This document shows, in pieces, positions 25,487 through 60,799 of a stretch of 64,000 nucleotides of DNA (positions are counted from its first letter, which is position 1; each line of letters starts with the position of its first letter). Under the pieces are notes generated by a model, which saw only the letters and a program-made list of their open reading frames with translations, was not told where the DNA came from and made no database searches. A program made the translations under genes and the position numbers. This stretch comes from Diprion similis (Eukaryota; Arthropoda; Insecta; Hymenoptera; Diprionidae), in contig NC_060113.1 of NCBI RefSeq assembly GCF_021155765.1, positions 10,803,001 through 10,867,000 of the forward strand, written 5' to 3'.

Positions 25487-25702
25487 AAGGCGTTATGTAG
25501 AATATTTGGAGGAAAATTGCTTCAATGGTAATAGGTGTTTCTCGTTTTAAGTCTGAAACAGGACTGTTTTTACAATAATATCGGTTGATGCAGCAACCCT
25601 CTTCATTTGATAACACGAGAACGCTTATACTTCTTGCGTCACAAGTCGACTACTAGATTATTCGGAAGGGGGATAAAACGGGTGATTTTACCCTTTGTAA
25701 CA
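25487..25702 (-). repeat. Gypsy A LTR, inverted and 3'-truncated
   Basis: Minus-strand LTR starting at 25702. It lacks the last ~70 bp of the LTR and joins directly to the leader of the forward LTR, forming a head-to-head LTR palindrome. It is the downstream LTR of the minus-strand pol copy. Confidence 0.8.
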
Positions 25703-26640
25703 CTACTCCCCCTTGAGGAGAAGAGTCGTCCCGACTCGTACAAATTTAAACAATAGTGATCCTGATCTAACAGACGGTGCTTGAAGGTGAGTCGGAGCTG
25801 TGGCTCTAAAAATTCAAAGACTCCCTTTCTACTATCTGGCATTTGCCCACAGTCTCAAGGTAAACCACAGAAAACCTTGAGCACATAGTCGAGCACTAAA
25901 CTGAACTCTTAAAATCTTATGTGCCGTGTTTTCACAAAGGTCAGTGTAAAAGTGTGTAGTGTACAGCTTCATGTAAAATCCAAAGGAGCGACCAGTTCCC
26001 AAATTTCGGAATCCAGGAAAATCCAAATTGGGTTGGCCAAAATGAATCGGCTTGAAGGACCACGGGGATAGAGGAGAGGTTCAGGCGGGACTCCAAAATC
26101 GGCGGTAGCCTTAGAAAGTTTTTGGGGCCTCTTCTTAACCTTCGGGAACGAGGGAGAGGAAAGGAGGCGGACTGGTCTTTAATTCTTCCGGAAACTGCAC
26201 ACCCTAGATTGGGAGGACAGGCGTAAGTGAAGGCAGACCAATCCGAATTCGATAAGCGAATTTGGGAAAAGCACGGATCGTGTAGATTTTATTTTCATTT
26301 TAAAAGAGAGAAAATAAACGATCTCATCTGGATTACCGTTGAGTGCTTCTTTAAAATCGGGGCTTTCAGTCATTCTCAAGTTCCAGGAGAAGGTAAAGGA
26401 AAATCGGGTTGTCATAAAACAACCTGAAAAAGTGCTGAAAAAAACCAACACATGGGTTAAAAAAATGTGAAAATCAAATAATCGCTTATCGACCATGAAA
26501 AATAACAATCGTGGCTCTGTTCAAACTACAAAGAAATCAGAGCCAATCCGACACAAAACTCGATTTATGAGAAGAATCTTCTAGAAGAAAACAAAAACTG
26601 ACGCGAGAACAAAAGCTTCTTCAGAACAAAACTTGGATCC
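25703..26640 (-). other. 3' untranslated region of the minus Gypsy A copy
   Basis: No sustained coding frame. The first ~250 bases (cttgaggagaagagtcgtcc...) are the inverse of 40650-40941, and segments around 26520-26600 are the inverse of about 40085-40170, so it is the conserved 3' part of the element. It presumably also holds the promoter of the antisense gene at 26657. Confidence 0.6.
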
Positions 26641-26656: not shown

Positions 26657-27116
26657 ATGTCGGGACACAACTTCATCAATGCTGCTATTTTAGTGAAAAA
26701 GTTTTTAATCTCTGATAATAACGAAATTTCAGCTGAAATAATAGAACGCAAATTTGCAGAAGAATGGGCAAAATTAAAGTGTGGACAACTAAACGCCTTT
26801 CATATACGGAGGGACTGCGGCGTAAGGTGCCGACGCTGTTTACTAAGATAGTAAGTCTTAAAGACAAATTCTCGACAGAATAAGGATTCTTTATCTTTCA
26901 ACACTCCGATTTCTCTTTTTTTTTAGTTTCCATTTCGAAGTCTCGGTGGAAGAAATTAAAGAACTGTGCATACACATCACATTTGGAGGAGTTGGACCCC
27001 AATGTATTGATTGTAATGATGAATTGATAACTTTGGAAAGAAATACTGAAATTTGCGAATCTTGTGAGGAAGTGAAAGATTCAATAAGAAAGATTATGGA
27101 AATATCCCATATTTGA
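26657..27116 (+). CDS. Two-exon CxxC zinc-ribbon protein, antisense within Gypsy A
   Basis: Exon 1 (26657-26850, 194 nt) and exon 2 (26927-27116, 190 nt) are joined by a 76-nt intron with gtaagt at the donor and ctttttttttag at the acceptor; the splice is phase 2 and the product is 127 residues. Cysteine pairs are CRRC just before the splice, then CIDC and CESC, 13 residues apart: probably two zinc-binding sites. The middle has FAEEWAKLKCG. It lies opposite to the retrotransposon sense strand, so its intron would not be spliced from the genomic RNA of the element. Homologues are at 48363-48815 (Polinton), 33965-39990 (broken) and, more distantly, 60800-61141. Function unknown; the composition suggests nucleic acid or protein binding. 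Confidence 0.8.
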
Positions 27117-27163
27117 AAGGGACTTTCAATAAAATTAAATTTCATGTGTTCTTTGTTGTTGAG

Positions 27164-27845
27164 TTAACTAGTAGAGATGAAGAGTAGTCTTTCTGCAAAG
27201 TCTAAATAGATCTGTTCAGCCATATTCTCTGCATCGATAACTATCACGGGGGCAGGTGGGGAAGAAAAAATGCCTCTAACTAACCAATCTTCGTGAACTT
27301 CATGAATAGTTCTAAGCAGTTGCAGAGGAATCTCTGATTCTTCCTTGCGTGCACGAGAATGGATCCGAACAAAAGAGGTTTCTGGGGAAACTCGCAAATA
27401 AACTATTAGATCTACTCCGAGTTCGAACGCTTGAATAAGAAGAGCAGAATTTTTTCTGAGTAAATGAGCCTCGAAATCTCGAAAATTTCCTGACCTACGA
27501 TGAGTCTCGACAAAACAATCGCCGCTGAACATCGACCTCTCCATAATTTTGACAGGCCGAGAGGTTAAAAGAAGATGTCTATCGTACATAATCTGTTAAG
27601 CGTAATGCTGAAACTGGTAGCAGTATCTATCCGGGTCTTCATACATCAACTGTCGTAAGTTGACTCCGGCAACATCACGGTACTGATCGAGGGGTTCTAA
27701 CAGGGTGCAAACCCGATGGTCCGACAAGAATCTCTTAGTAAAGGTTGTCTTCCCGCATCCGATGTTTCCTTCGACGATGATAGAAAGTGGCTTCTTCGTA
27801 TGGAGTGAAATTCCGAAGGGAAGGTTATGTTCCCAATTAATTAAA
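27164..27845 (-). pseudogene. Captured deoxynucleoside kinase in Gypsy A (one stop)
   Basis: Minus-strand frame of about 227 residues, the normal length of insect-type deoxynucleoside kinases. It contains the P-loop EGNIGCGKTTF (27743-27775), then LLEPLDQYRDVAGVNLRQLM and YQFQHYA, a TAA at 27596-27598, then PVKIMERSMFSGDCFVE (the ERS motif), and a LID region SRARKEESEIPL followed by HEVHEDWLV. These enzymes phosphorylate deoxynucleosides to supply dNTPs. There is no in-frame Met before the P-loop and the TAG upstream separates it from integrase, so it may be expressed by frameshift, splicing or as a separate unit. It sits right after integrase. Identification rests on several ordered motifs, so I am confident of the family; the stop makes this copy inactive. 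Confidence 0.88.
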
Positions 27846-27876
27846 GGCTAGAAGACAGGAAGACTTGAAGTTCGTG

Positions 27877-30543
27877 TTACTTTTCTGAGGACTGATTCGC
27901 AGGTGATCTAACCTGGGAGGATGTTCCAGGTCCGGGTAATTCCGTTCGAGTTCGTTCTTCGAATGGAGCTAGACTGTCCGGGTGCACTACCTTTTCTCTG
28001 GAGTGAGGCGTTTTTCGGATCCTGTAAACGACATCGTCGATCCGGTCAACTATTTTATATGGACCTTCCCAGTTCCGTTGGAGTTTCGGACATCTTCCTT
28101 TCTGTCTTCTAGGTTGGAAAAGCCAGACAGAATCTCCGGGATTAAATTTTAAATCACTAGCTCGTATATTGTAGCGAGCTTCCAATTTATCCGAAGCCAT
28201 GGAAATTCTTTTCCTTGCAAAATTATGAATTTCTTCTAGGTGCCGTTGTAAATCAGAGGCATAATCTATTTGGGGTTGTGTTTGCACGGAAACAGGGCCT
28301 TTCTCTAAATCTGACGGGAGTCGAAGATTTCTGCCCGTGAGCATACAAGCGGGCGTCTGTTTTGTCGTCTCGTGAATCGCAGACCTATAACATAAGAGGA
28401 AAAAGGGAATCCAGGTGTCCCAATCTCTCTGATTCTGTTCTACGAAGGACGACAAATATTAGAGCAAAGTTCTATTCAGATGTTCTATCATGCTGTCAGA
28501 CTGAGGATGGAGGAGAGTAGTACGAGTTTTTCTAACCCCTAAAATTTGAGTAACATCTTTCATTGAGCTTGACTCAAAATTTCGGCCCTGATCGGTGTGT
28601 ACTTCTAGAGGAACTCCGTGCCTACAGATATACTCTTTAACGAACGCCTGAGCTACAGTAGAGGCTTCCTGACTGGCGAGTGGAATTACTTCGGGCCACT
28701 TGGTGAAATAATTAGCGATGACTAAAGCGTATTTATTCCAGCTGTGGGTTATAGGAAGAGGACCGAGGATATCCATTGCTACCCTCTCGAAAGGAGCTCC
28801 CACGTTGTAAACTTGGAGAGAGCTTTGTCCTTTATCTCAAGATCCTTTCTCTGACGTGCAGACTTGACATCTTCGACACCAGTCTTCTACTTCAGCACGA
28901 CAACGTGGCCAAAAATAACGATCGCGTATCCTGCCTCAAGTTTTATTCGAGGCAAAGTGTCCACCTGCAGGAGAATCATGGTAAAGAGCAAGAATCTCTG
29001 GAACTCGATTTCTGGGAACCAAAAGTTGCCACTTGATCCCTTCTAAGTCCGCGGATTCCCATTTGCGGTATAATATTCCGTCTATCAAAAAAATAGAGTC
29101 CCATTGAGCCCAGTAAATTTTGACGTCAGACTCAGCTGAGGATATTTCTTGCCAGTCCGGGCGAGTTTCCGCTTCTTTCCAAGATTTCACTTGAGACAGA
29201 GTAGAATCTTCATGTTGAGATCTTTTGCAATCTTGAAGGTTTTCTCCAAGAGAAATCTTTCGTATTGTAGGAGGAGAATCTCTGTATTTTTCAAGGCGAG
29301 TACATTGCCTACAATCTGTTATTTCTTCGCAGGGCCTTCGAGAAAGAACGTCAGCGTTTCCATGTTGTAAACCTGCTCGATGACGAATTTCGAAATCGTC
29401 CTGTCCGAGCCTCTCTATCCACCTAGCTATCTGACCCTCGGGGGATTTAAACGAAAGTAACCACCTCAAAGAAGCATGGTCTCTTCTAATCAAGAATTTC
29501 CTCCCGTACAAGTGATGATGAAAGTGGACCACGGTTTTAACAACGGTTGAGAGCTCACGACGGGTAGCGCAATAATTCCTCTCAGTCTCACTAAGAACTC
29601 TGCTGTAATAGCTAATCACTCTCTCTTGACCTTCCTGTATCTGTGACAAGACTTCGCCTATCCCTGACAAAGAGGCGTCTGTATCTTAAATAAAAGGAAG
29701 TTCGACTTCTGGATAGGCTAAAATCGGGGACGAAGTAAGATTTTCTCTCAATTTCTTGAAGGCTTCTTCACATTCCGGAGTCCAGTCGAATGGAATCTTG
29801 ATTCCTGTGAGACGATGCAGGGGCTTGGCTATCGTGGCGAAACCTTTTACGAATCTTCTGTAATAGGTGCAGAGACCCAAAAAGCTCTGAATCTGTTCTT
29901 TGTTTGTCGGTGTCCGCCAAGCAGAGACCTTCTCGATCTTGGAGGGATCGGTCCTCACTCCTTCAGCGGAGACGATGTGGCCGAGAAAGCTGACTTCTCT
30001 CTGGAACAGATGGCATTTCTTTGGACTCATCTTTAGGCCTGCTTGTTTTAACCTGGAGAAGACTTGTTCGAGGTGGTCCACTTCTTCTTCAAAGTCCTTC
30101 CCGAAAACGATTATGTCGTCCAAATAAACGAGGCAAATTTTCCCAGTGATTCCTTTGAGAACAGTCTCCATCATCCGTTCAAAGGTAGCCGGGGCATTAC
30201 TTAAGCCAAAAGGCATTACCTTAAATTGCCATAATACTCCTAGTCCTGTGACGAAAGCTGTCTTTTCCTTGTCCAGGGGATCCATCTTGACCTGCCAGTA
30301 ACCGCTCTGAAGATCAATGGTACTGAACCCGCTTGCGCCAGCAATCAGATCGAGTGTTTCGTCGATTCTGGGGAAAAGATAGGAGTCCTTCTTGGTGATG
30401 TCGTTCAGCTTCCTGTAGTCTATGCAAAATCGCTTGGAGCCGTCCTTTTTGTTGACCAGGACGATCGGAGAAGCCCAGGGGCTGGAAAAAGGCTTGATTA
30501 CGTCGTTGGTCAGCATATCTTCAACGAGTTTCTTCACCTCCAC
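27877..30543 (-). pseudogene. Gypsy A Pol: RT, RNase H, integrase (minus copy)
   Basis: RT (30543-29686) is open through SKRFCIDYRKLND, FGLSNAPATFERMM and the catalytic LVYLDDIIVFG, to a TAA at 29686. RNase H (29670-28936) includes YSRVLSETERNYCATRREL, then stops. Integrase follows from about 28935: WCRRCQVC of the zinc finger, MDILGPL (first Asp), HTDQGRNFES (second Asp), LHPQSDSMIEHLN (Glu), with a TGA at about 28934, one at about 28838, and a TAA at 28457. The C-terminal domain (28455-27877) has GDSVWLFQPRRQKG. Four stops, all point changes relative to the plus copy, disable it. The RT palm is intact here, unlike in the plus copy. Confidence 0.92.
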
Positions 30544-30650
30544 TAAAAAACTAGATACAGATGATTTGGGGGGCGAAAATCATCGCAGGTTGTGAGAGTA
30601 GAAAGCCCTTTTGCAACTCAGTTCTTATTGAGGAGTTTAAGACGGTCTGG
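30544..30650. other. Head-to-head junction of two Gypsy A copies
   Basis: The minus copy (RT 5' end) and the plus copy (protease) meet here. A short unique stretch with no domain lies between; no target duplication or LTR is seen, so this is a rearrangement rather than a clean insertion. Confidence 0.6.
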
Positions 30651-33530
30651 TCTTCACGCGCGCGGAACTGTCAATGGCGTTGACTGCCTCTGGGTAATTG
30701 ATACCGGAGCAGAGGTAACCGTTGTTTGATCGCATCTTTTGAAATCCGATGACCAGACTGTTCCCTCTTTATGTTTGCGAACAGCCACTGGAGACCCGAC
30801 CCCGATTTTAGGAGAGGTTATCGTGCAGATTAACCTCTTTGGATGTGTCGACTCTCCGCACAAGGTTTTTGTCGCAGATATCGAGGATGAAGGTATTTTG
30901 GGTTTAGATTTCCTCACAGCTCATGATTGCGTGATTTCCACTCAGAGGAATTCTCTGCCGTCTAACAGCCGCGAAATCCCTCTCTGCTCTAAGAAAAGAA
31001 GAGTGAACTGGACTCCTCCAAAAGTACGAAAAGTGGAACTCTCTGAAGACAATCACCAAGATCTGCCCCCTCCGCATCTAGGAAATCTTTTCGAAAGATC
31101 GTCAGCCACGCTGAATTTGCAACAGGAAGAATTCTTTAAATCTGTTTTATTCAAGTACGCAGATTCTTTAGCAGTCAACAGCGGAGACAACGGGAGATGT
31201 ACGTCGGTAAAACACAAGATCGACGTCGGAAGCAATCCTCCAATTAAACAAGCTCCCCGGAGGCTCGCCCTCAACGGCAGGGAAAAAGTGAAGAAACTCG
31301 TTGAAGATATGCTGACCAACGACGTAATCGAGCCTTTTTCCAGCTTCTGGGGTTCTCCGATCGTCCTGGTCAACAAAAAGGACGGCTTCTTTTATTTGGA
31401 CGACATAATCGTCTTCGAGAAGGACTTTGAGGAAGAAGTGGACCAGCTCGAACAAGTCTTCTCCAGGTTAAAACAGGCAGGCCTGAAGATAAGTCCATAG
31501 AAATGCCATCTGTTCCAGAAAGAAGTCAGCTTCCTCCGCTGAAGGAGTGAGGGCCGATCCCTCCAAGATCGAGAAGGTCTCTGCTTGGCCGACACCGACG
31601 AACAAGGAGCAGGTTCAAAGCTTTTTGGGCCTCTGCACCTATTACAGAAGATTCGTAAAAGGTTTCGCCACGATAGCCAAGCCCCTGCATCGTCTCACAG
31701 GAATCAAGATTCCATTCGACTGGACTCCGGAATGCCAAGAAGCCTTCAAGAGATTGAAAGAAAATCTTACTTTTTCCCCGATTTTAGCCTATCCAGAGGT
31801 CGAACGTCCTTTTATTTTAGATACAGACGCCTCTTTGTCAGGGATAGGTGGAGTCTTGTCACAGATACAGGAAGGTCAAGAGAGAGTGATTAGCTATTAC
31901 AGCAGAGTCCTTAGTAAGCCTGAGAGAAACTATTGTGTTACTCGTAGAGAACTCTTAGCTGTTGTTAAAACCGTAGTCCACTTTCATCATTACTTGTACG
32001 GGAGGATATTTTTGATTAGAACAGACCATGCTTCTTTGAGGTGGTTACTTTCGTTTACATCCCTCAGGTACCTAGGTAGATAGAGAGGCTCGGACAGTAC
32101 GATTTCGAAATTCGTCATCGAGCAGGTTTACAACATGGAAACGCTGACGCTCTTTCTCGAAGGCCCTGCGAAGAAACAACAGATTGTAGGCAATGTACTC
32201 GCCTTGAAAAATACAGAGATCCTCCTCCTACAATACGAAAGATTTCTATTGGAGAAAACCTTCAAGATTGAAAAAATCTCAACATGAAGATTCTACTTTG
32301 TCTCAAGTGAAATCTTGGAAAGAAGAGGAAACTCGCCCGGACTGGCAAGAAATATCCTCAGCTGACCGCGGACTTAAAAGAGATCAAGTGGCAACTTTTG
32401 GTTCCCAGAAATCGTGTTCCAGAGATTCTTGCTCTTTACCATGATTCTCCTGCAGGTGGACACTTTGCCTCGAATAAAACTTTAGGCAGGATACGCGATC
32501 GTTATTTTTGGCCACCTTGTCGTGCTGACGTAGAAGACTGGTGTCGAAGATGTCAAGTCTGCACGTCGAAGAAAGGACCTCGAGATAAAGGACAAAGCTC
32601 TCTCCAAGTGTACAACGTGGGAGCTCCTTTCGACAGGGTAGCAATGGATATCCTCGGTCCTGTTCCTACAACCTACAGTGGGAATAAATACGCTTTAGTC
32701 ATCGCTGATTATCTCACCAAGTGGCCCGAAGTAGTTTCACTCGCCAGTCAGGAAACCTCTACCGTAGCTCAGGCGTTCGTTAAAGAGTTTATCTGTAGGC
32801 ACGGAGTACCTCTAGAAGTACATACTGACCATGGCCGAAATTTTGAATCAAGCTTAATGAAGGGGGTTACTCAGATTTTAGGGGTTAGAAAAACCTGCAC
32901 GACTCCCCTCCATCCTCAATCTGACGGCATGATAGAGCGTTTGAATCGGACTTTAGTCCAATATTTTTCGTCTTTCGTGAAACAGAATCAGAGAGATTGG
33001 GACACCTGGATTCCCTTTTTCCTCTTATCTTATAGATCTGCAATCCACGAGACAACGAAACAGACGCCAGCTTCCATGCTTACAGGGAGAAATCTTCGAC
33101 TCCCGTCAGATTTAGAGAAAGGCCCTGTTCCCGTGCAAACACAGCCCCAGACAGATTATGCCTCTGATTTACAACGGCGCCTAGAGGAAATTCATAATTT
33201 TGCAAGAGAAAGAATTTCTATGGCTTCGGATAAATTGAAAGCTCGCTACGACATACGAGCTAGAGATTTAAAATTTAATCATGGAGATTCTGTCTGGCTT
33301 TTCCAACCAAGAAGACAGAAAGGACGATGTCCGAAACTCTAACAAAACTGGGAAGGCCCTTACCAGGTGGTTAACCGGATAAACGATGTTGTTTATAGAA
33401 TCCGAAGAGGTCTTCACACAAAAACAAAGGTAGTTCACCTGGACCTGCTTGCTCCTTTCGAAGATGGACATCCATCTGAATCAAACTCACTGAGAGCTGG
33501 AACATCTGATGAGGTTAAACATTGAGAGAA
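30651..33530 (+). pseudogene. Gypsy A Pol: protease, RT with deletion, RNase H, integrase (plus copy)
   Basis: Protease begins with LWVIDTGAEVTVV (about 30692-30730) followed by a TGA. RT (30739-31500) has IVLVNKKDG directly fused to FFYLDDIIVFE: about 270 bp of the palm between these motifs are deleted, so no active RT is possible. The rest of RT and RNase H (31547-32083) has TDASLSGIGGVLSQIQ and then a stop near 32083; a gap of about 300 bp follows. Integrase (32398-33342) is open, with CRRCQVC, MDILGPV, HTDHGRNFES and LHPQSDGMIERLN. The C-terminus breaks at 33342 but continues to about 33525 in another frame. Confidence 0.9.
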
Positions 33531-33863
33531 TTGCTTCTGTCAACCGAGACGAATTTAACCTCTCCACCTGTCAAGTTATGGGAAGATCGATTTTTTCACG
33601 ACAATTGTTTTATTGAAGCTCGTTGCAAATTAGAAAATTTTCGAGACTTTGAGTCTTATTTTCTCAGAGAAAACTCTGCTTTTCTCGTTCAAGTGTTTAA
33701 ACTTGCAGTAGATCTGATAGTTTATTTGCAAGTCTTCCCAGAAACCCAGAAGAGTCGAAGATTCCTCTGTAACCGCTTAGAGCTATTCGGGAGATTCACG
33801 GACATTGGTTGGTTACTCTCAAGTTATTCAATTATTAAATTAATTAACCTAGTTGAAATCTGA
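33531..33863 (+). pseudogene. Deoxynucleoside kinase fragment of the plus Gypsy A copy
   Basis: The stretch PVKLWEDRFFHDNCFIEAR followed by ENFRDFESYFLREN and LAVDLIVYLQVFPET aligns residue by residue with the kinase in the minus copy from its PVKIMERS motif onwards. The P-loop half is missing, so the gene goes straight from integrase into the middle of the kinase. After PET another frame continues with EESKIPL and EIHGHWLV, the LID and following helix. It is a decayed copy, but it proves that the kinase belongs to the family and not to one chance insertion. Confidence 0.8.
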
Positions 33864-34271
33864 TTCAGTAGGACAAGAAATTTTATACAACTCTTTTCAT
33901 TTGAACAAGAAGCAAAAAAAAAGGGGAGAAGAGGAACACGCAATGAATAAAAAGGCATTCATAATTATGGGATGGAAATCTCGTAGATTTTTTCCCCGAT
34001 AATTCGCAGGGCCAGCTTCACCTCCTCACAGTCGGCACAACCCTCCGTACTTCTGACTGTGAGGAGGTCCTTCTTACACATCCGGCATTTGAGCAGTCTT
34101 CCCATGAATGCGCGGGTAGCTCTTCCTGGCGGAGAAAGTTCTTTTCGTCCGCACTAGAAAGCAGTAAAGAACGGTTGACGTCTCCGCTCGAGATTCCAAA
34201 ATTGAATACTGGAAAATAGCTCACCGGGTTATCCAATAGTTCTCGCATAGGAGGCCCATCTCCGAGCTCTA

Positions 34272-34462
34272 TGTTGTTATTATATATATACTCTTTATTA
34301 CATAGGAACTTCTTATTGCACACGTCTCGTCGACAACGGTCACGGACCAACTAATTAGAAATTACCGGGAACGCAAGTAGTGCGCGTCGGCGCCTTAATA
34401 CTAACTTATGCTCACGCATGCGCAGTGAGCCTATCGACGTACGATAACTTTACTTTTCAACA
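34272..34462 (-). repeat. 3' LTR of Copia element
   Basis: 191 bp, nearly identical to the LTR at 39626-39816, differing at only a handful of bases, so the insertion is recent compared with the Gypsy A copies around it. Confidence 0.92.
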
Positions 34463-36059
34463 CTCCCGCCGTTTGAGTGCGTCAAGGAGCTTATGCCTAA
34501 ACCGTTACATAGATGCTGAAATTGTTTCTTTGGAAGTGCTTTGGTAAATATATCAGCTAACTGCTGATCAGTAGGGACATATTCTACCGATATTTCCCCA
34601 CTTTCCACAGTTTCGCGAACATAGTGATGCTTAATGTCTATATGTTTAGTTCGCTTGTGGAACTCCGGATTTTTTATTAATCGGATTGCACTTTGATTGT
34701 CTATTTGTAAAACTGTAGCAGTTTCCGGTGGACACCCGAGATCGTTTAATAATTTCCTCAGCCAAATGGCCTCTTTCGCAGCCGCTGCTGCCGCGACGTA
34801 CTCTGCCTCCGTTGTGCTGAGTGTGACTAGTTTTTGTCGTTGGGACAACCACGTTACAGTCCCGTTTGATAGACAAAACGCATACCTCGTGGTAGATCTT
34901 CGCGTCTCCACGTCACTTGCAAAATCAGAGTCTGAAAACCCTTGCAACTCCGAGTTACTCCCGCCGCTTTTATACATTACCCCGACTTTCATTGTTCCGA
35001 CCAAGTACCTGTAGATTCGTTTCACCGCTTGCCAGTGGCTCTCGTTGTGATGCTTGCCGTGAAGAAAGGCTGTTCTCACATCGAACTGTGTGAGTTCCAT
35101 GTCCTGTTCAGCTACCATAGCCAATAGAACTCTTAACTGAAGGTCTCCGTGTAGTCGAGTCCCTCTTTTTGTTGAAATCCTCGGGCACAAAGTCTCACTT
35201 TGTACCGGTATACGTCGCCTGACGTGTCTCGTATGACCTTGAACACCCATTTCGAATCTATGGGCTTTCGATCAGTGTTCCTTGGTACGATCGACCAAGT
35301 CTCGTTCTGCTCGTGCGCGTCGAACTCTTCCTGAATCGCCTCGGCCCAACTTTCTGCCTCGACACTGTTCATCGCCTCCTGAAATTTGTTTGGCGGATTA
35401 TATTCAGCAAAGTCGAGCTCATACCTTACGGGTCGTCGGATGTTTGCACGGTCCCGTAGTTGTCTGTCATTGGCTGGTTGTTAATTTCTTTCAGGTTCTT
35501 CCTGAGCTTCCTGGCGTTCTTCCTCCGGTTGCTGCTCGACGGATTCTGCCACATCTTCATTTTCGTCCGCTGGGAGAATGTAGTTGAATTCTTCCCATTT
35601 TTCTGCTCCAAGTTGCGACTTCTCGTTGAATGCGACGTCTCTGGATACAGATATTTTCTTATTCTGTGGATTATACAAACGGTAATTCATCGAGTCGTTC
35701 TGATATCCAACTAAGATCAACTTTGTGGCCTTCGGATCTAATTTCTTGCGAAATTGTTTGTCGATATGCATGTACGCATCTGCTCCGAACACTCGAAAAT
35801 GAGACACATCAGGTGGTTTTCCAAACCATATCTCGTATGGTGTCTTCTCTTTACCGGTAGCCAGAACTCGGTTGAGCACGGTCACTGCTGTGCCGACTGC
35901 TTCCGCCCATAGCGATAGAGGAAGTTTCTTTGCCGTTATCATCGTGCGCGCACTCTCGATGATTGTCCTGTTGTCGCGCTCTGCTTTCCCGTTCTGCTGG
36001 GGAGTGTAAGGTGCCGTGTTTACCAGCTCGATACCACGTGCCTCGAGATATCGCTTCAT
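34450..36059 (-). pseudogene. Copia Pol, C-terminal part: integrase end, RT, RNase H
   Basis: The integrase C-terminal half (36059-35481) begins RYLEARGIELVNTAPYT and contains QQNGKAERDNRTI, with the catalytic Glu in AERDNRT. A stop at 35481 follows. RT restarts at about 35372 (AEAIQEEFDAHEQNETW, WVFKVIRDTSGDVYRYK), and the next frame (35250-34450) has QFDVRTAFLHGKH fused directly to WQAVKRIYRYLVGT: the catalytic YVDD part of RT is deleted. RNase H is complete: GFSDSDFASDV, LSTTEAEYVA, DNQSAIRLIKN. So no active RT can be made. Confidence 0.92.
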
Positions 36060-36063
36060 TTCA

Positions 36064-37738
36064 ACCTATGTGAAGCTGGCCTGCAACTTAAGATTTTTTA
36101 AATAATTAATGTACCAAAAAATTGCTCCCGATTTGCTTCTAATTGCTCCGTACTTTTTATTAATTGCTCCCGAATAGATCCGGAGAAAAACTGAAAAAAA
36201 GAAAACCGAAAAAAAACTGAAATCTAGGGATATTCTTTGAACGCGGTTTTTGGCTAAACGGAAGGGATTTGAAGGATCTTCTGTGCGGCAAAAAATTGCT
36301 CCCCGTATACAGTTAATTGCTCCACCATCAGATTTAATGAATTCGCACTCTTTATCGAAAAGAAAAAGGAAAAATGTAATGTGACCATAAAGTAGTGGGG
36401 GGTGGGCCAACTTCACAACCAACTTGAAACAAGTCTGACGAACGAAAATTAAAAAATAATAATACTAATTAATTGCTCCTGATTTGCTCCTAATTGCTCC
36501 GTAGTTTCCATTATTTGCTCCCGCATAGAGCCGGAGAAAAACAAAAAACCGAAAAGAAGAAGAATCTAGGGGAAAATGGCTGGAACGGAGTAGGAAATAG
36601 ATATTTGCGTCTATATGAATGAAATATATCAGAAAACAATTGCATTTGTATTGCTTTAATTTGCTCTACCTTTATTTCTAATTGCTCCCTCGTAATTGCA
36701 GAGTTATGAAATGATTAAGCAAGCTAGATGACGACATAACCCTACTTTTGATCGGACTCCGTTATACGGAATAAAAAAGGGACAATTGGGCATATATGCA
36801 TAAAATGAATCGAAAACGATTGCTTTGCTATTGCTTCAATTTGCTCTATCTTTATTTGTAATTGCTCCCTCGTATTCACAGAGTTATAAGATGATTAACA
36901 AGCTCGATGACGACATAACCCTACTTTTGATTGGACTCCGTTATACGGAGTAAAAAAGGGATAATTGGGCATATATGCATAAAATAAATCGAAAACGATT
37001 GCTTTTTTGTTGCTTCAATTTGCTCCACCTTGATTTTTAATTGCTCCCTCGTAATCGCAGAGTTTTAACATGATAAACAGGCTTGATGACAACATAACCC
37101 TACTTTTTGGTCAGCCTTCGTCATTAGGAGTAGAAAATAGATATTCGCGTCTATGTATAGATAAAATAAATCAGGAAATGACTGAATTTGTGTAGTTTTA
37201 ATTTGCTCCACCTTTATTTCTAATTGCTCCCTCGTAATCGCGGAGTTTTAAGATGATTCTCAAGCACGATGACAACATAACCCTACTTTTGATTACTACG
37301 GAGCAATTAGGAGCAAATCAGGAGCAATTAATTAGTATAATTATTTTTTAATTTTTGTTCGTCAGGCTTGTTTCAAGCCGGTTGTGAAGTTAGCCCACCC
37401 CCCACTACTTTATGGTCACATTGCATTTTTCCTTTTTTTTTCGATAACGAATGCGAATTCATTAAATCTGACGGTGGAGCAATTAAGTGCATACGGGGAG
37501 CAATTTTTTGCCGCACAGAAGATCCTTTAAATCCCTTCCGTTTAGCCAAAAACCGCGTTTAAAGAATTTCCCTAGATTTCAGTTTTTTTTTCGGTTTTCA
37601 TTTTTTTAGTTTTTCTCTGGATCCATGCGGGAGCAATTAATAAAAAGTACGGAGCAATTAAGAGCAAATCGGGAGCAATTTTTTGGTATATCAATTATTT
37701 CAAAAATCTTAAGTTGCAGGCCAGCTTCACGTAGGTTT
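36064..37738. mobile_element. Nonautonomous Foldback-like/MULE element in Copia integrase
   Basis: It starts ACCTATGTGAAGCTGG and ends with the inverse, ccagcttcacgtaggt, and is flanked by a perfect 9-bp duplication ttcatttca (36055-36063 and 37739-37747). The inverted arms reach several hundred bp inward (about 36064-36500 and 37290-37738). The interior has four imperfect repeats of ~230 bp marked by ttgctccctcgtaat. The end sequence ACCTRYRTGAA resembles that of the 8.5-kb Foldback-like element, which also has a 9-bp duplication, so the same transposase type may move both. No gene inside. Confidence 0.9.
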
Positions 37739-39469
37739 CATTTCACGGTTGCAATACTCTAGACCGTTGTCCGTACGTAACACCTTCATCGGCTTGCCGA
37801 ATTTGTTGTGGATCAACTTTTCGTACTTCTTGAATATGTCAAAGACATCGGATTTGTGTTTCATGAAGTGGACGTACCTGAATCCTGACGCGTCGTCCTT
37901 AAAGGTTATGCAAAATCTTGCCCTACCGATCGACTCTGTTGAGAATGGTCCGCATACGTCCGAATGTATGTATTCTCCCGGTTTTGAGGTTCTTTTTGTC
38001 TCGTTCTTCTTGAACGGCAGCCTGTGTGCTTTTCTGAAGGCACACGATTCACAGAAGAAATCGTCAATGTCCGCTAATTTCACACCGCGAATTAGCCCCT
38101 TTTGCGTCATTTCTCGCAAAACTTTATTGTTTACGTGTCCCATTCGTTCGTGCCAGACACGCAAGTTGACAGTTGACACATTTGCTTCTCTCGCAACACT
38201 TGGTTTTCTCACTTTAAAGAGCATTCGGTAAATCTGATTGTCTTGTTGCACACCGACACCGAAAACTTCACTGTCACGGTTAATTGTCACTAGTTTACCT
38301 TTGAACAACACATCGAAACCTTTTTCAGTGCATACGCCGACTGAAAACAAGTTCTTTCGAATCTTCGGAACGTAGAGCACGTTTTCAATTCGAGCTTCGC
38401 ACCATCTACCGTTTACTAGTCTATCGATAAGCACAGTGCCACTGCCGGTAACGTCACACACGCCATTGTCCCCGAGCAAGATAGACTCATCACTGCTTGG
38501 TTCAAACTCACTGTACCAGTCCCGTCGGTAAGTAATATGCCTGGACGCACCGCTGTCGGTGATCCAGACATCGCTTATGTCGACTGCTGTGAGTCTTTCT
38601 ACGACCTCACTACTCGGCGCCGTCTCCGATTTCACTTGTTGCTGTTTTTGTTCACTTGTCGAAGCGACGAACGCACACTCACGAGGGTTTTCACCGGTAT
38701 TGTCTTTGTCCCTTTTCTTTTTCCGGCACTCGCGAGCAAGATGTCCTTTCCTTTTACAATAGAAACACTCGACACTCGTATTTCTACTTTCGCGGTTTTT
38801 CTCACTGTTATTGTTTTGATTCGCGGCTAATTTTTTCTTTTTGTTCCCGCCAAGATTAACAGCGGCTAACGCTCGAGTGACGTCGTCGTCACCTTCAAGT
38901 CTTCTTTCTTCCTTCAATAATCGTTCTAATAGATTCTCAAGGGTTTGTCTTTCTTCGGGTACACTGTCCCATGCTGTCTGGAGCGCGTTGTACTTTGCCG
39001 GTAGGCTGCCAAGGACCTTCGCCATTATGGCCGTGTCTGAAACCGCTTCTCCCAGATCCTTGAGCTGAGACGCCATGTTTTTTACCCGGGAAACGTGTTG
39101 TACAACCGACTCGTTTGATTCCATGCGATGTCCGTGGAACTTTTGTAGCAGGAGCATCTTGTTCGACACTGATTTCTGCTCATGAATTCTAGCTAATTTG
39201 TCCCACATTTGCTTCGCTGTGATGCAGTCGAGCATACAGTCGAGCTGGGAATCCTCTATCGACGAGGAAACTATGCACATGGCCGTCGCGTTGTCTTTCA
39301 CCCACTTTTTGCCATCGGCTGAATCTGCGTCTGCCGGCATCACTCGCACGCTCGTTACGACGTCTTGAATCGCGTTCGCGATAAGCATTGAGTTCATTCG
39401 AAACTTCCACGCTTGAAAGTTCGAGCCATCAAACTTCTTAATGTTCTTTATCAGAGTTGACTCCGCCAT
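37739..39469 (-). CDS. Copia Gag-protease-integrase N-terminal part
   Basis: The ORF starts MAESTLIKNIKKFDGSN at 39469 (the longer frame upstream is LTR/leader). Gag core: FQAWKFRMNSMLIANA and LLQKFHGHRMESNESVVQHV; CCHC knuckle CFYCKRKGHLAREC. Protease: DVWITDSGASRHIT. Pre-integrase zinc region: VWHERMGHVNNKVL and FCESCAFRKAH. Integrase core: YIHSDVCGPF (first Asp) and LRTDNGLEYCNREM (second Asp), where the Foldback-like element cuts it at 37738. The C-terminal half continues at 36059. Apart from that insertion the frame is open over 570 residues, so it was intact until recently. Confidence 0.93.
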
Positions 39470-39625
39470 TTTCGTTCGATTATTTTCCCGTACGCGTTTT
39501 ACCGGTACACTACAATGGCGACCACGTGTCGACCAAAACAAAATTCGAGATAACCGTTTTCTCTCTATCGTTCTCTGACTTCGATAATCGGGTGTTACGC
39601 AGGCTGCTTGCCTGGGCCCATAGCC

Positions 39626-39816
39626 TGTTGTTATTATATATATACTCTTTATTACATAGGAACTTCTTATTGCACACGTCTCGTGGACAACGGTCACGGA
39701 CCAACTAACTAGAAATTACCGGGAACGCAAGTAGTGCGCTCCGGCGCCTTAATACTAACTTATGCTCACGCATGCGCAGTGAGCCTATCGACGTACGATA
39801 ACTTTACTTTTCAACA
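39626..39816 (-). repeat. 5' LTR of Copia element
   Basis: Direct repeat of 34272-34462. The transcript of the element would start here on the minus strand. Confidence 0.92.
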
Positions 39817-39990
39817 CTCTCCCTAATTCCCACTCCTCGGCCGCATTGAACAAAGCTCCAGTCTTCCAGGAAGCGTTGCCGGAACGCGGGGTTTTCCACA
39901 TCTCCATAGTGTTTTCCCACGAAAATTGGGAGACGAGAATCCCCGCGTTCACGAGCGCTGAAGCCGAGGGGGTTGACACGAAAGACATTT

Positions 39991-40941
39991 TTCTCTAGAT
40001 TTTGGTGATCCAGTCACTTGAACTAACTTTATCGTAATGATTTGTTATCTTTGGGTTGCTATTCAATTTCAGAATTGTTTTGTTTTTCATGTTTGATTTT
40101 GTTTCCTTCTAGAAGATTCTTCTTGGAATCGAGTTTTGTGTCGGATCGACTCTGATTTCTTTTAGTCTGTATGGAGTCACGATTATTATTCTTCAGGTCG
40201 TTAAGCGATTATTTGATTTTTGCATTTTTCTAATCCCTGTGTCAGTTTTTGTCAGCACATTTTCAGGTTCCCTGACACAACATCTTTCCTGTGATTCCTT
40301 TCTTCATTCCCGAGAACGACTGGTGATCGACGAGCCGGGTTTTTCTTCTCCAGATTCAGATAAGATCGTTTTTTTTCTTTTAACAGAAATAAACGTTTAG
40401 TGATTTGAAAACGATCTTTATTAATGAATCTTTCTTTAACTAAATTCTTTGAACGAATTTGGAATGTACGATCACCATTGCTCACGTCTGTCCTCCCGAT
40501 CTAGGGTGTGCTGTTTTCGGAGAAATCCCAGAACCGGCCCACCACCTTTCCTCCTCCTTTTTCCAGTGGTGGTATCATAACTCCAGGATCCCTTTTGGAC
40601 TTCCGCTCGAGTCCTTCCTGATTTCCCGGATCCTGTGACACCCTTGGATTCTTTCATGAAGAGGATTTCGTAACACTTATACACTTTACACTAACTTTTA
40701 TAACACATATTACAGAATATTGTGAAAATCTTGATTTTTGGGACTTTTGTTCGGCTATCTGCTCAAGGCTTTCTATGGTTTACCTTGAGACTGTGGGCAA
40801 ATGCCAGATGGTTAAAAAGGGAGTCTTCAAATCTTTACAGCCATAGCTCCGACTCACCTTCGAGCACCGTCTGCTAGATCAGGATCACTATTGCTTCAAT
40901 TGGTACGAGTCGGGACGACTCTTTTCCTCAGGGGGGAGTAG
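39991..40941 (+). other. 3' untranslated region of the plus Gypsy A copy
   Basis: Noncoding. Inverse of much of 25703-26640 in the minus copy, including a cttctagaag word. It ends in a purine run, cctcaggggggagtag, which is the polypurine tract before the LTR at 40942. Confidence 0.65.
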
Positions 40942-41219
40942 TGTTACAAAGGGTAAAATCACCCGTTTCACCCCCCTTTCAAATCATCTAGTGGTCGGCT
41001 TGTGACGCAAGAAGCATAAGCGTTCTCATGTTATAAAATGAATAGGGTTGCCGTGTCAACCGATATTATTGTAAAAACAGTCCTGTTTCAGATTTAAAAC
41101 GAGAAACACATACTGCCATTGAAGCAATTTTCCTCCAAATATTTTACACAACGCCTTTTATTGATTCCGTGAACTCAGCTCACGTACCCACATTATATTC
41201 GAAACGCGAGTCCGTTTCA
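40942..41219 (+). repeat. Gypsy A LTR, right end of the locus
   Basis: Starts TGTTACAAAGGGTAAAATCACC after the polypurine tract and ends gtccgtttca at 41219, followed by a (TA)n run at 41220-41236. The same (TA) context flanks the left LTR at 14210. Confidence 0.88.
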
Positions 41220-41236
41220 ATATATATATATATATA

Positions 41237-47788: not shown

Positions 47789-48268
47789 GTGAGCAGTAGC
47801 AGTAGTATGCCGGTTTTGGACCACCGCGTGTGCGTGTGTCCGTGTGAGGTGTGCGTGCGTCCGTGTGACCGGCCTAAGCTGACTTAACGTAGATATGCCG
47901 GTTCTGGACCAACGCATGTGTGTCCTTGTGAAGCGTGTGTGTGTGTGTGAGCGTGTGAGTGTGTGTGTGTGACCGTGGTTCTCAACCCGCGGTTCTCAAC
48001 CCCCGCGGATCTCAACCTCCCTGAGTGTTATCATCAGTGGTTGAATACCATCGCGTGTGATTACCATCAGAGAGTGCAATGGTAAGTAGAACTCCGTTCA
48101 GCTGCATCTGGCCAGCTGTCCAATTAATACACCGAGGCGGATTTCAACTTCCGCATAAACCTGTCGTCCAAAATTACCTTGTTGACACGAAAAACTTACA
48201 ATGTCGCCCGAGTAACCCCTTCGCATAAGCCTGTCGGTTTTTCGCGATTTAGCGCTTCCCAAAATAAC
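47789..48268 (+). repeat. Left TIR of the Polinton
   Basis: Matches the inverse of 62473-62935. It contains two copies of a ~90-bp unit (beginning atgccggttttggacc and atgccggttctggacc), a GT/GC-rich simple-repeat block at 47826-47975, and a unique inner part ending in ttcccaaaataacac. Confidence 0.92.
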
Positions 48269-48362
48269 ACTATCCCTAAGATGTTTCCACCCCACCCTAG
48301 CATTATCGTTGTAAAAAGGCGGTTCACCAGCAAAAATCCACAGTCATAAAATCTCCTTCATC

Positions 48363-48815
48363 ATGTCAGACTTCCACGTGAACAACAACGTTGCTATAGT
48401 TGCGGCCCAACTCGACTGGACCGACCTTAGACGACTAACCAGCGAGCCTCTGCGAGAACACTTTGCCCAGCAGTGGGCGCGAGTTCGTTGCGGTACAGTT
48501 AGTGCCGTCCGTGAAAAAAATGTACCAGGCTACATCTGCCTGCAATGTTTCGTCGTCCAGTGACTATACACAACGCCTTAAAATCATCTACCACCAAAAT
48601 CGCTTACAAAACATCACTTTTGCAGCGCCAACATAGAAGACTTCGACAATAATGTGCTATTCCACATCTCGTTCGTGAAACCTGACTCGTTCACGTGTCG
48701 AGTTTGTGGAGATAGTTTATTTGGAACAACCCGGCCAACAGAGGGTTGTACCAAGTGCGAAGAACTGATGGTCCAATTGAAACACGTTGCTGAGAGTATT
48801 AATTTTTACTTTTAA
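48363..48815 (+). CDS. Two-exon CxxC zinc-ribbon protein of the Polinton
   Basis: Exon 1 (48363-48559, 197 nt) and exon 2 (48626-48815, 190 nt), intron 66 nt with gtgact donor and cttttgcag acceptor, phase 2; product 128 residues. Cysteines: CLQC before the splice, then CRVC and CTKC 13 residues apart. Middle: FAQQWARVRCG. The order of motifs, the intron position and phase and the exon 2 length equal those of the gene antisense in Gypsy A at 26657-27116. First gene inside the left TIR and the only gene on this side pointing inward alone. No stops: this may be functional. Function unknown. Confidence 0.8.
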
Positions 48816-48857
48816 TTCAACGTTGGAACACGCCTCTACACATTCCCTGATTATATA

Positions 48858-49115
48858 ATGGCTGCATTATCATTTCCGACCTCAAGCTCAAAGGTTAGCA
48901 ACTTCCGCCTCCTAATAGTTGATTACCCTACCATTAATTTTCGCAAAAATGTAGGTTTATAATCAGTCATTTATATGCTCTGCTTCCATATGCAACAGAA
49001 TTGCATTGTATGCAGAACGTCCTCACGTGAGTTATTGCTCACAGCCCATCATTGTTTCATACTCCCACTACCAATTTTCCCTGTATATAAAAACTTCATC
49101 ATACACCGCCTGTAG
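48858..49115 (+). CDS. Possible small spliced zinc-finger gene
   Basis: An ATG at 48858 follows ttatata. Exon 1 (48858-48893) MAALSFPTSSSK; donor gttagc; acceptor tgcaacag; exon 2 (48999-49115) starts NCIVCRTSS and has HHC further on, giving a C-x2-C...HxC-like finger. Product about 50 residues. The tail overlaps the TATA region of the next gene. Weak call: short, with an ordinary donor. Confidence 0.3.
49083..49093 (+). promoter_or_regulatory. TATA box of the next Polinton gene
   Basis: tatataaaaac about 90 bases before the ATG at 49172. Followed by a short leader with two copies of cgcaagctgaac. Fits a core promoter in position and sequence. Confidence 0.5.
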
Positions 49116-49171
49116 TCACAATCACTCCGCAAGCTGAACGTTCTCCACGCAAGCTGAACAATCTACACGCA

Positions 49172-49681
49172 ATGGCTGAACTGCAAGAATTGGTAAATAT
49201 ACACCGCGCCGTCGACGTTGATCGCATTCTAACCAATGAATTATATTTTCTCACAGACAAACTTACTCGATGAGCCACCAGCCGCGTCGAACAACTCATT
49301 TTTCGGAGACTTTGGTTTGAGTCAACTGCTACCCGAATGGGATGTATTACCGGAGAACGAGCCGAAGACTGGTATTCCCGAATCCATCAAACTACTCACC
49401 GACACACATTCCTGTTCTCTCAACAACGACGTCGGCAACGGAGAGGTTAAAAAATCCAAATTAAAATCTACAATACCAAGGATATTCTACGAACTGACAA
49501 GACTGACTGGTGGCGAACCGCTCTGTCCAACATGCAGTTCACAATCAACCGAAGCTCTCCCGAATATCAGCTTTTGGGTGACCTGACTGCGAAAGTCATC
49601 TCCCGAATCCGCAAACTCCCCGGCAGAAAACCTGAACGCAAACGCCGAACCACTCAAAAAAACAAATTTAAACCTTATTGA
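49172..49681 (+). pseudogene. Polinton accessory gene, spliced, with basic C-terminus
   Basis: Exon 1 (49172-49192) MAELQEL, intron 49193-49256 (gtaaat...tctcacag), exon 2 from 49257 in phase 0 with NLLDEPPAASNNSFFGDF and PEWDVLPENEPKTGIPES. Near 49450, at an A-run (ttaaaaaatcc), another frame takes over: TDWWRTALSNMQFTINRSS and the Arg/Lys-rich end KLPGRKPERKRRTTQKN to 49681. The shift may be decay or a sequencing error in the homopolymer. Acidic first half and strongly basic tail suggest a nuclear or DNA-binding product. A poly(A) signal (aataaa) follows at 49700. Not recognised otherwise. Confidence 0.55.
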
Positions 49682-49757
49682 TAAAAAAATGTATTGATTG
49701 AATAAACAACTTTATTAAAAATATGATCAAGTTTTTATTTTTCAGTGTGCATTTATT

Positions 49758-50327
49758 TCATTCATCGAAATTACTCTTGTCCTGAAATTCATTGTACCAC
49801 AATCTCATGAGTTGCACGTTTTGAAACGCACAAATCCCTGCATGAAAGCTGCAATCAACGATCTTCTTGTCGTAGGATTTCCTCAATATTTCAATCGCTG
49901 GACAGCCCAGTTCCATCATATCCACCGCATTCAAATTTTCCGCATATTCCTCCAACCAACAAATTTTTTCCAATCCCTTGACAAGCACCAACGGCGTTCT
50001 GCCCAGGTGATCGCGCATAATCCTCCTCAAGTTGCCGGAAGTTGTAAAACCATCAGTCCACTGGAATCCATGATGATTATGCGAAAGATACTTCACTTGA
50101 TGGCCCAGTTCATTCGGCAACAGGTTTCAGGCATATGGATCTCGAAATATGTAATGACCCATAGTCTTGGCTACGTTCTCATAAAATGCGACTTCTTTCA
50201 CCACGAATTTATTCCCAACGCCGATAAATCCCTGCACATCCACGAACATACAATCCATTACAGCAATTTTCGAACAACGTTCGTTAGAGGTGTGTACTCG
50301 ACGATTCGATCGTGCAGTATGAGACAA
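49758..50327 (-). pseudogene. Conserved Polinton protein of unknown function (one TGA)
   Basis: One frame from 50327 to 49758, about 190 residues, broken by a TGA at 50127-50129 between DPYA and NLLPNELGHQ. Upstream part: VMDCMFVDVQGF, KFVVKEVAFYE; downstream: HNHHGFQWTDGF and the Glu/Leu-rich C-terminus. It overlaps the major capsid gene by 70 nt in another frame. I recall proteins of this pattern as typical Polinton accessory products, but have no proven function; acidic residues in DCMFVD and KE could be nuclease-like. Confidence 0.55.
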
Positions 50328-51481
50328 TAAGTAGCTGTGTCATCCTCTATATCCGTTTCGCTCTCAAATTCTATTCGTAGGTCAACTGTAGCACTTTTAA
50401 TAGATTCATTTTGTCGCGAACAATCTATCACTATTATTAATGCATCCTTGATGTAAGTTTGCATATCCAGAATGGGTCTATTCACAGTTCCATAATACGA
50501 ATTCTGGAACTTGGCATATATATCGTACAGTAGAGGAAATTGTTCATTTTTACAGCTTACGTTCAGATTTTCATATGAATATAAATCACTGTTTAGAAAT
50601 AGCTTAACGTTGCGTAAATCGCAATGGTCGAAATAACTCGCATGATTCTTCACGTTTTCCTTCCGATTTCTTTGCAATGCAAATATCACATATCTTGGTT
50701 TTTCCAGTTGCGTTGCTATTTTAATGGGCCAAACTTGCATTTTAGATTTCGGTAAATTTGGATTTTCCTGCAACGACCAAGATCTGAAGCACATCTGTAT
50801 CGGTTGATTTTTCTCCAATATTCTCAATAGCGACAGCTTTTCAACATCCGATGGCATCACATGCGGTATTCTCCATTGTAATTTTGTTATTTCCAAACGC
50901 ATGTCTTCCACAGCCGCACCAGTTTTGTAGCAATTTTTATCGGTTCTGCTTCGTATAAGAATGAGTTCGTGTCGAGCGTTGGCAACAATTTTCTCATAAT
51001 CTTCTGCGAAACCCAGCACGGTATTCAATGGAATACACAGGCTAAAATCACCCGTGTGATGGTTGCTTTTATATCCACCATCCTTCCATCCAAATATTTC
51101 CATGGCGTTTTTCTTACTCTGATCCAGCGAAATATAATTTTTAAACGTTGATGTTATTCCTACATTCTTACAATGATCAATTTCCACAGCATTCAATTCG
51201 GAGCGTATTTCATCGAAAAAAAAACACGGAATGTTTTTTTCCAGCTCAAAATCAATTTGATAATTTCTCACACCCGCAACAATTTTGAAAGCTTTTCCCT
51301 GAATGTAGATGAAACTCTCACTCGGCAGCACACACAAATCCTGCTGTTGTATCGAAATGCGTATCTCGTCGTTATTGTTGTAGGAGGAATTTGCATACGG
51401 ATTATGTGCATGCCCGATCGCCTGGTTGATGCTGTTGTCGTAGACCGGCGATGCATCGATTCTCAGGATGTTGGACATCAT
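50258..51481 (-). CDS. Polinton major capsid protein (double jelly-roll)
   Basis: 407 residues, open throughout, starting MMSNILRIDASPVYDNS. Late motif IIVIDCSRQNESIKS followed by VDLRIEFES, and YVIFALQRNRKEN in the middle, are patterns I associate with Polinton hexon-type capsid proteins. Length is at the short end of this family. It lies on the minus strand downstream of minor capsid and protease, the usual late-gene cluster. It would form the virion shell of a possible Polinton virus particle. No lesions. Confidence 0.8.
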   Translation of the reverse strand: MMSNILRIDASPVYDNSINQAIGHAHNPYANSSYNNNDEIRISIQQQDLCVLPSESFIYIQGKAFKIVAGVRNYQIDFELEKNIPCFFFDEIRSELNAVEIDHCKNVGITSTFKNYISLDQSKKNAMEIFGWKDGGYKSNHHTGDFSLCIPLNTVLGFAEDYEKIVANARHELILIRSRTDKNCYKTGAAVEDMRLEITKLQWRIPHVMPSDVEKLSLLRILEKNQPIQMCFRSWSLQENPNLPKSKMQVWPIKIATQLEKPRYVIFALQRNRKENVKNHASYFDHCDLRNVKLFLNSDLYSYENLNVSCKNEQFPLLYDIYAKFQNSYYGTVNRPILDMQTYIKDALIIVIDCSRQNESIKSATVDLRIEFESETDIEDDTATYCLILHDRIVEYTPLTNVVRKLL

Positions 51482-51638
51482 TTTCGGAGTTTAAACCCCA
51501 GCGAAATCAAAATATTCTTGCTTTTTGAAGTAAGCAACCGTTCGGAATTTAGTGACCCTTTTGTATCCCTCGGTGATTCAGTACTGACCGAAACAGTGCT
51601 GGATGCTTGATTATATGCATTGTTGTATGTTAGCATTT

Positions 51639-53562: not shown

Positions 53563-53612
53563 GCAACAACATAAAATTTATAAAACAGTCCGTCACTTGA
53601 CCAATCAAAAAT
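53563..53612. promoter_or_regulatory. Divergent intergenic region of Polinton late and ATPase genes
   Basis: Only 50 bp separate the minus-strand PLA2 start from the plus-strand ATPase; it is AT-rich (aaaatttataaaac), so a shared bidirectional promoter is likely. No defined element beyond this AT-rich core. Confidence 0.4.
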
Positions 53613-54263: not shown

Positions 54264-54322
54264 TGTAACCCGCCTGAGGTTACAGTGTTACGTCTGAATG
54301 TGTGCCCATAACATCTTTAAGT

Positions 54323-55450: not shown

Positions 55451-55453
55451 AAA

Positions 55454-56416: not shown

Positions 56417-56425
56417 ATATTATTT

Positions 56426-60114: not shown

Positions 60115-60184
60115 TGTGCCTCCAAAAAATTTTCGAAAATTTTATGAACAGCACTCGTCATACAATGTGCGATTCAACTCGCAG

Positions 60185-60613: not shown

Positions 60614-60799
60614 TGTAGGGATGCGAGATAGCAGTGCAACATTTTATATTGTATGAGGGGAGTGGAGGGAGAAGCGTTGTATAATTGCATGGTAATAATG
60701 TATTGACATGGGTAGCCTTTTGAATGGCCAGGGTTGAGCGAATGCGGTGGGGAACGGTATCAGAACGTCGTTGCGAAAAAAAATGCTAGATGGATTATC

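Follow-up and report, generated by a model that had tools for sequence, protein, structure and literature searches.

In the accessible parts of two reports on plant elements, open reading frames are described that lie antisense between pol and the 3' LTR, and the one of Grande is transcribed from its own promoter (PMC7264820, PMC11963269). In HTLV-1, the hbz gene lies antisense close to the 3' LTR and is spliced, and related genes exist in other deltaretroviruses, according to the available part of the source (PMC10186651). For the VANDAL transposons of Arabidopsis, the available portions of two papers describe the VANC proteins as anti-silencing accessory proteins in an arms race with silencing (PMC10398659, PMC5735166). 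Here, we analysed a 64,000-nucleotide stretch of the Diprion similis genome (the window; all plain coordinates refer to it), in which members of one small gene family, here called Zn genes, are found in retrotransposons of a gypsy family (Gypsy A) and in a Polinton.

The Zn gene of the first Gypsy A copy (gene 1, type G1) is located on the plus strand. Its exon 1 at 26657..26850 runs from the ATG to a phase-2 donor (GTAAGT) and is followed by a 76-nt GT-AG intron at 26851..26926 (GTAAGT...TTTTTTTTTAG) and by exon 2 at 26927..27116, which comprises 190 nt including the stop codon. Gene 2 (type P1) in the Polinton consists of exon 1 at 48363..48559, a 66-nt GT-AG intron at 48560..48625 and exon 2 at 48626..48815, all on the plus strand, and its second exon likewise has exactly 190 nt with the stop. 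The products are 127 and 128 amino acids long, respectively. Both introns are in phase 2 and occupy the same place, which confirms the two-exon structure that had been read from the letters in the original prediction. The homology of the two genes, also claimed there, was borne out by a single BLASTP comparison, which gave 28% identity over 119 aligned positions with E = 3e-15. When every cysteine was held in place and the remaining residues were permuted, none of 2000 shuffles reached the score of the real pair (136 against a maximum of 74, z 13). A chance likeness of the cysteines was therefore ruled out.

In an alignment of seven members, 17 columns were invariant, including F33, W37, C42-G43, G55, C58, C61, H81, C91, C94, C108 and C111 in the numbering of gene 1. 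When 16-17 exon pieces were aligned, F33, W37, C42, C58, C61, C91, C94 and C111 were invariant and G43, G55, H81 and C108 nearly so. The protein pattern F, W, CG, G-CxxC, H, CxxC-x12-14-CxxC is invariant or nearly invariant, and we infer from it two predicted zinc sites, one of which (C42, C58, C61, H81) would straddle the exon junction. A poly(A)-type signal AATAAA is located at 27128..27133 on the plus strand, shortly 3' of the gene 1 stop. Among the copies looked at, AATAAA or ATTAAA was present within ~90 nt 3' of the Zn stop in 9 of 9 gypsy copies and in 0 of 4 Polinton copies.

The Zn proteins were also compared with databases. Gene 1 and gene 2 gave only sub-threshold Pfam matches, the other members gave weak ones with best E values of 0.0006-0.065, and nothing below E 0.26 was obtained for the family in the PDB. 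In a protein collection that includes insect proteins, none of 6 candidates for gene 2 reached E 1, and none of 5030 candidates for the family alignment reached E 0.01. Gene prediction for this collection may have passed over small genes borne by repeats. The comparison with viruses that had been proposed as a check yielded no relative in the viral contigs and no match in a phage search.

Gene 1 lies antisense to its element, as had been claimed. The pol of Gypsy A copy 1 is on the minus strand at 27893..30540, with Pfam matches for reverse transcriptase and RNase H on 28936-30579 and the integrase recognised by match. Its 3' end occupies 25549..26579, also on the minus strand, and consists of the 3' untranslated region (25703-26579) and a partial 3' LTR (25549-25702). 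Between pol and gene 1 we found a deoxynucleoside kinase (dNK) region at 27160..27886 (minus strand, sense to the element), where the protein match covers 27179-27790 with one in-frame TAA. Copy 2 is arranged head to head with copy 1, with its pol at 30552..33464 and a dNK remnant at 33554..33746, both on the plus strand. A broken third Zn gene had been noticed in copy 2, and exon remnants were indeed found there on the minus strand: exon 2 at 33983..34117 and a frameshifted exon 1 with approximate ends at ~39820..39990. However, this gene is of type G4 and not G1, and it is split by a Copia element inserted within it (34272..39819, minus strand, LTRs 98% identical), so that an exon remnant flanks the insertion on either side. 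Pieces of the 3' untranslated region and a partial LTR of copy 2 continue past the Copia element at 40114..41095 on the plus strand. The original prediction contained neither the kinase gene nor the exchange of Zn types described below, nor the different type of the third copy. Elsewhere in the window, an open reading frame of 575 amino acids at 15746-17473, which has no Pfam match, adjoins a repeat at ~18232-20939 that recurs at ~5155-7191 and 41232-43949; the region 15746-20939 is an unclassified transposon.

The genome (269 Mb) was then searched with five Zn family members as queries, and dozens of copies at least were found, all copy numbers being lower bounds. Gypsy A integrase sequences at least 69% identical were present at 44 places, taken from the best 126 of 793 candidates that were scored (47 rows, three of them second pieces of a listed element). 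A Zn gene was located within 5 kb of the integrase at 28 of the 44 places and was antisense in all 28, which are related copies and not 28 independent events. The question raised earlier, whether other Gypsy A elements carry the gene in the antisense position, is thus answered positively. A dNK sequence, partly broken, was present on the same strand as the integrase at 42 of the 44 places. The Zn match was absent at 16 of the 44 places; the one that was inspected, L083, is a deletion derivative, 99% identical to a G1 element except that ~1 kb with the Zn start and the greater part of the gene is missing.

Another ten close copies were then retrieved, each in a piece of 10 kb. The Zn gene was antisense beside the same dNK in 10 of 10 and beside the same gypsy integrase in 9 of 10; in the remaining one, L033, no pol was seen within its fetched 10 kb. 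LTR pairs were found in 7 of the 10 copies, 96.8-100% identical over an aligned length of 278-286 bp. Clear 4-bp target duplications with different flanks were observed in 4 of these 7 (ATAT three times, GTAT once). Two of the other three are located within AT repeats, where a duplication is indiscernible, and one is without a duplication. Since four copies have their own target duplications and different flanks, they are separate insertions that carried the intron. The elements show the LTR pairs, the reverse transcriptase before the integrase in sense order and the target duplications of Ty3/gypsy elements, and Pfam RVT_1, RT_RNaseH, Integrase_H2C2 and rve match the Gypsy A pieces of the window. 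We conclude that gene 1 belongs to the regular gene set of a Ty3/gypsy family whose LTRs measure ~280-286 bp. The element contains, in this order, gag, pol, an intronless dNK in sense orientation, the antisense Zn gene with one phase-2 intron and a poly(A)-type signal, and the LTR.

The dNK of Gypsy A was analysed in the L034 copy, where PF01712 was matched with E 3.4e-40 and 138 bits against a cut-off of 27. The closest PDB structure is 1j90, which we take to be the Drosophila enzyme, and the translation shows P-loop, ERS and LID-like motifs. In copies without stops, the element dNK is a single open reading frame of 226 amino acids. The host dNK at C2:13551800-13552704 is of the same family, but was matched in at least three separate pieces, whereas the dNK borne by the retrotransposon is intronless and 44% identical to it. 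A FastTree analysis was run on the host gene, one element copy and 31 of 120 listed proteins (33 sequences in all). In this tree, the gypsy dNK grouped with the metagenome protein P0003 and not with the host gene (support 0.998, long branches). P0003 is a 230-aa dNK on a 2459-bp contig and perhaps belongs to a comparable element in another species. At NCBI, the element dNK copies P0001 and P0002 stand as Diprion similis genes, which should be taken as a warning for annotation; P0001 has PF22938 as a second precomputed Pfam domain. Among the copies L031, L034, L035 and L036, dNK dS was at most 0.021, and dN was 0.017 for the pairs with L031, giving a ratio near 1. In the other 15 pairs, dS was 0.066-0.199 and dN 0.013-0.048. 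A pooled dNK dN/dS of 0.82 was discarded as wrong, probably owing to a register shift from a stop in L040.

The element therefore carries intronless sense cargo and intron-bearing antisense cargo, while the kinase gene of the host is split. This fits the logic of the original prediction that a gene in antisense orientation retains its intron when the element is copied via RNA. The genomic RNA would hold only the complement of the Zn gene splice sites, and for this reason the antisense intron would be copied intact.

Within the Gypsy A family, the Zn genes fall into five diverged types (G1-G5). The nucleotide identity was 47-52% among G1, G2 and G3 and 42-44% to P1, so that the gypsy types compared have diverged from one another as much as from the Polinton type. 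The clearest comparison is that of L028 (G2) with L031 (G1). The two elements share 96.4% identity over the stretch that begins at the LTR and stops 43 nt short of the Zn start, and 96.7% once more from a point close to the 3' end of pol. Between these flanks, the Zn gene was unalignable save for a 36-nt piece, and part of the dNK was 75% identical. The integrases are 99% identical with a dS of 0.021, whereas the Zn genes are 50% identical with a pS of 0.73. The same picture was seen with L029, which is 97.6% identical from the LTR over 655 nt and 93.2% in the next piece, with an integrase dS of 0.036. The same left edge recurs with G3, whose flank keeps 91.6% identity until 42 nt before the G1 start, and with G4, whose flank keeps 96.0% until 61 nt before it. 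For G5, the flank is 84.2% identical up to 112 nt before the G1 start and the integrase 79%; this type possibly represents no more than an older lineage. In the older G2 copies, the flanks have likewise diverged further, with 87-92% identity in L023, L025 and L027 and 72.8% in L030, where the integrase dS is 0.40. Taken together, our results show that the 3' block with the Zn gene and the dNK has been exchanged between close elements, most clearly in L028 and L029. Template switching of the retroviral kind, between co-packaged RNAs, might account for the exchange, as might gene conversion.

The conservation of the reading frame was followed in 43 modelled copies. The phase-2 intron was at the same place in 23 of them, with exons intact and introns of varying length; imperfect among the 23 are L061, which is shortened, L030, which has another start, and L023, which has a poor donor (GTTTTT). 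The pooled dN/dS was 0.18 for 7 distinct G1 copies (leaving out L032 with an unsound model and L036 and L038, which are identical to kept rows; L040 is outside the set), 0.22 for 4 G2 copies from 9 places, and 0.33 for 8 P1 copies, a value that includes L044 with a wrongly modelled exon 2 and is probably an upper bound. For the window copy against other G1 copies, dN/dS was 0.08-0.11 at a dS of 0.7-1.0. Young G1 and G2 copies gave 0.2-0.6, and one P1 pair ~1.1.

Two readings would do without either an exchange of types or a protein under selection. Fast evolution of the types in place would agree with the position, the intron and the strand that all of them share and with the diverged flanks of the older copies (L030, G5). 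We regard it as extremely improbable and rejected it for the clearest pairs, since flanks of 96-97% identity and an integrase dS of 0.02 stand against near-saturated synonymous change of the Zn genes in the same two elements. The Zn gene could also be a passive relic, a decayed insertion that is copied along without selection on its protein. The 20 of the 43 copies that are broken, cut or without a sound gene model point in this direction, as does the higher dN/dS between the youngest copies. Nevertheless, a relic is very unlikely in the light of the pooled ratios of 0.18-0.33, of exons that stay intact around introns of changing length, of the retention of several types and of the two G2 copies that were read (L023, L028), in which the Zn gene is intact and the dNK broken. 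Selection imposed by an overlapping sense gene would be an unlikely cause of these ratios, as the longest stop-free stretch on the sense strand over gene 1 is ~90 codons in the window (over exon 2) and 72 in L034.

The Polinton of the window extends over 47795..62932 and is bounded by terminal inverted repeats at 47795-48269 and 62472-62932. It encodes an A32-type ATPase (53601-54263, Pfam Pox_A32), an integrase (55451-56416, Pfam rve) and a PolB, matched by DNA_pol_B_2 within 57334-58584 and with neighbouring open reading frames at 56773-60141, and was classified on these features as a Polinton/Maverick. A phospholipase A2-like protein (PF08398) is encoded at 53056-53577. Gene 2 sits immediately inside the left terminal repeat. 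In the genome, a gene-2-like copy was present within 16 kb of an integrase of this Polinton family at 20 of 28 places (merged from 30 rows and taken from the best 129 of 737 candidates scored). Conversely, 26 of 38 Polinton-type Zn places were near such an integrase and 12 had none within 16 kb, a few of the 38 being two halves of one split gene. The P1/P2 type is thus a regular constituent of a Polinton family that shares the genome with Gypsy A. At C5:6281112, C5:5717230, C4:6472246 and C3:18662721, gene-2-like copies occur in inverted orientation at both Polinton ends, as though the terminal repeats had been extended over the gene.

How the gene came to be in both element classes was considered with a tree of the Zn proteins, which is unrooted and comprises 16 sequences of ~125 amino acids with long branches. 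In this tree, P1 and P2 group with G4 (UFBoot 88, FastTree 0.95), apart from G1, G2+G5 and G3. The original prediction had proposed that an LTR retrotransposon captured the gene from a Polinton. Stated in this way, the capture is not supported, since the Polinton types join G4 alone, and a transfer from gypsy to Polinton is at least as compatible with the unrooted grouping. Read without an outgroup, the tree would fit a gypsy-to-Polinton transfer and repeated Polinton-to-gypsy transfers alike. That the retrotransposon took the gene from a Polinton agrees with the gene family and the intron being common to both elements and with the Polinton-type copy at C10:1350214, which lies ~1 kb from a G4 copy at C10:1351345. 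We consider this capture doubtful, because four other gypsy types are outside the unrooted Polinton and G4 group and the gypsy sequences are the more diverse set in this genome. It is quite possible, though still short of probable, that the gene is older in the gypsy lineage and that a Polinton gained a G4-like type by DNA recombination after a nested insertion. The five gypsy types against two Polinton types and the grouping of P1/P2 with G4 would be expected in that case; on the other hand, the tree is small and unrooted, and the greater diversity may merely reflect faster exchange. A third source, either an insect virus or a host gene from which both classes took the gene, can be suggested tentatively. 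Viruses commonly encode small accessory proteins of the zinc type, and the gypsy dNK also groups with a metagenome protein rather than with the host kinase. However, the viral contigs and the protein collection held no relative, and the copies whose surroundings were inspected or mapped are embedded in, or adjoin, sequence of gypsy or Polinton elements. Exceptions to this setting are L024, L044 and L045, with little or no such sequence in their 3 kb, and the 12 Polinton-type places mentioned above.

Probably, the locus is best explained as a swappable antisense Zn accessory cassette that accompanies a sense dNK, exchanges its types, keeps its intron and perhaps has a role against the host. Transcription of the Zn gene would start at a promoter in the conserved stretch adjoining the 3' LTR and run in the direction of pol, and the transcript would be spliced and polyadenylated within the element; promoter, splicing and protein are predictions from the sequence. 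The product would be a small zinc-binding accessory protein acting for the element against a host factor that Polintons meet as well, most likely silencing. A role in counter-defence fits best with a zinc protein in two unrelated element classes and with swapped, diverged types. Counter-silencing in particular is a cautious suggestion; alternatively, the protein could regulate transcription in the manner of HBZ or assist replication. Because the antisense transcript is complementary to the genomic RNA, it should serve as a substrate for RNAi, a cost for which the idea of counter-silencing has to account. The dNK would supply dNTPs for reverse transcription, a role for which we see an even case.

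Our results suggest that the Zn gene is a helper gene traded by mobile elements. More generally, and as a speculation that we hold to be on the unlikely side, interchangeable intron-bearing accessory genes may circulate within a single genome between mobile elements that belong to different classes, with alleles being swapped against a common host defence. If this is true, retrotransposons hold such genes antisense, in the orientation where an intron survives the RNA cycle, and the trade of alleles resembles that of phages, which trade anti-defence genes. Gypsy A offers a natural internal control for the travel of genes on reverse-transcribing elements, with intronless sense and intron-bearing antisense cargo in one element, and the swapping of accessory genes is seen inside one retrotransposon family. 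As the Zn gene family also occurs in a DNA transposon, exchange between classes and a possible common counter-defence become testable.

The comparison with the known systems can now be drawn more closely. The antisense frames of Retand and Grande resemble the Zn gene in their place, orientation, retention across many copies and unknown origin, as far as the accessible parts of the reports go (PMC7264820, PMC11963269). They differ in belonging to plants and not to insects, and the Retand antisense proteins carry, in the part available, a TRP28 domain. The Zn proteins do not; TRP28 (PF04195) was not matched at E 0.1 in seven Zn members. The word intron occurs 0 times in either of the two plant-element papers, whereas the Zn gene has one, and their accessible text mentions neither sharing with a DNA transposon nor swapping of types (PMC7264820, PMC11963269). 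What the Zn gene has in common with hbz is its residence in a reverse-transcribing element close to the 3' LTR, its antisense orientation and splicing, which in the Zn gene is predicted from its intron. By the available part of the source, hbz encodes a bZIP factor, and its spliced and unspliced forms differ at their 5' ends (PMC10186651). The Zn gene has instead an internal coding intron between zinc-type motifs, and bZIP was matched neither by gene 1 or gene 2 at E 1 nor by seven members at E 0.1. The likeness to VANC is an analogy only, the element class being different in the accessible portions of those papers (PMC10398659, PMC5735166). The literature that we searched, largely outside subscription journals and by titles and the beginnings of abstracts, yielded neither an antisense gene with an intron that also occurs in a Polinton, nor a gypsy element bearing a dNK, nor an exchange of types of this kind. 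Antisense open reading frames near the 3' LTR in plants and spliced antisense genes in HTLV were thus known from the sources seen in part, whereas an intron-bearing antisense gene shared with a Polinton, the swapping of its types and the dNK of a gypsy element did not appear in the titles and abstract beginnings searched.
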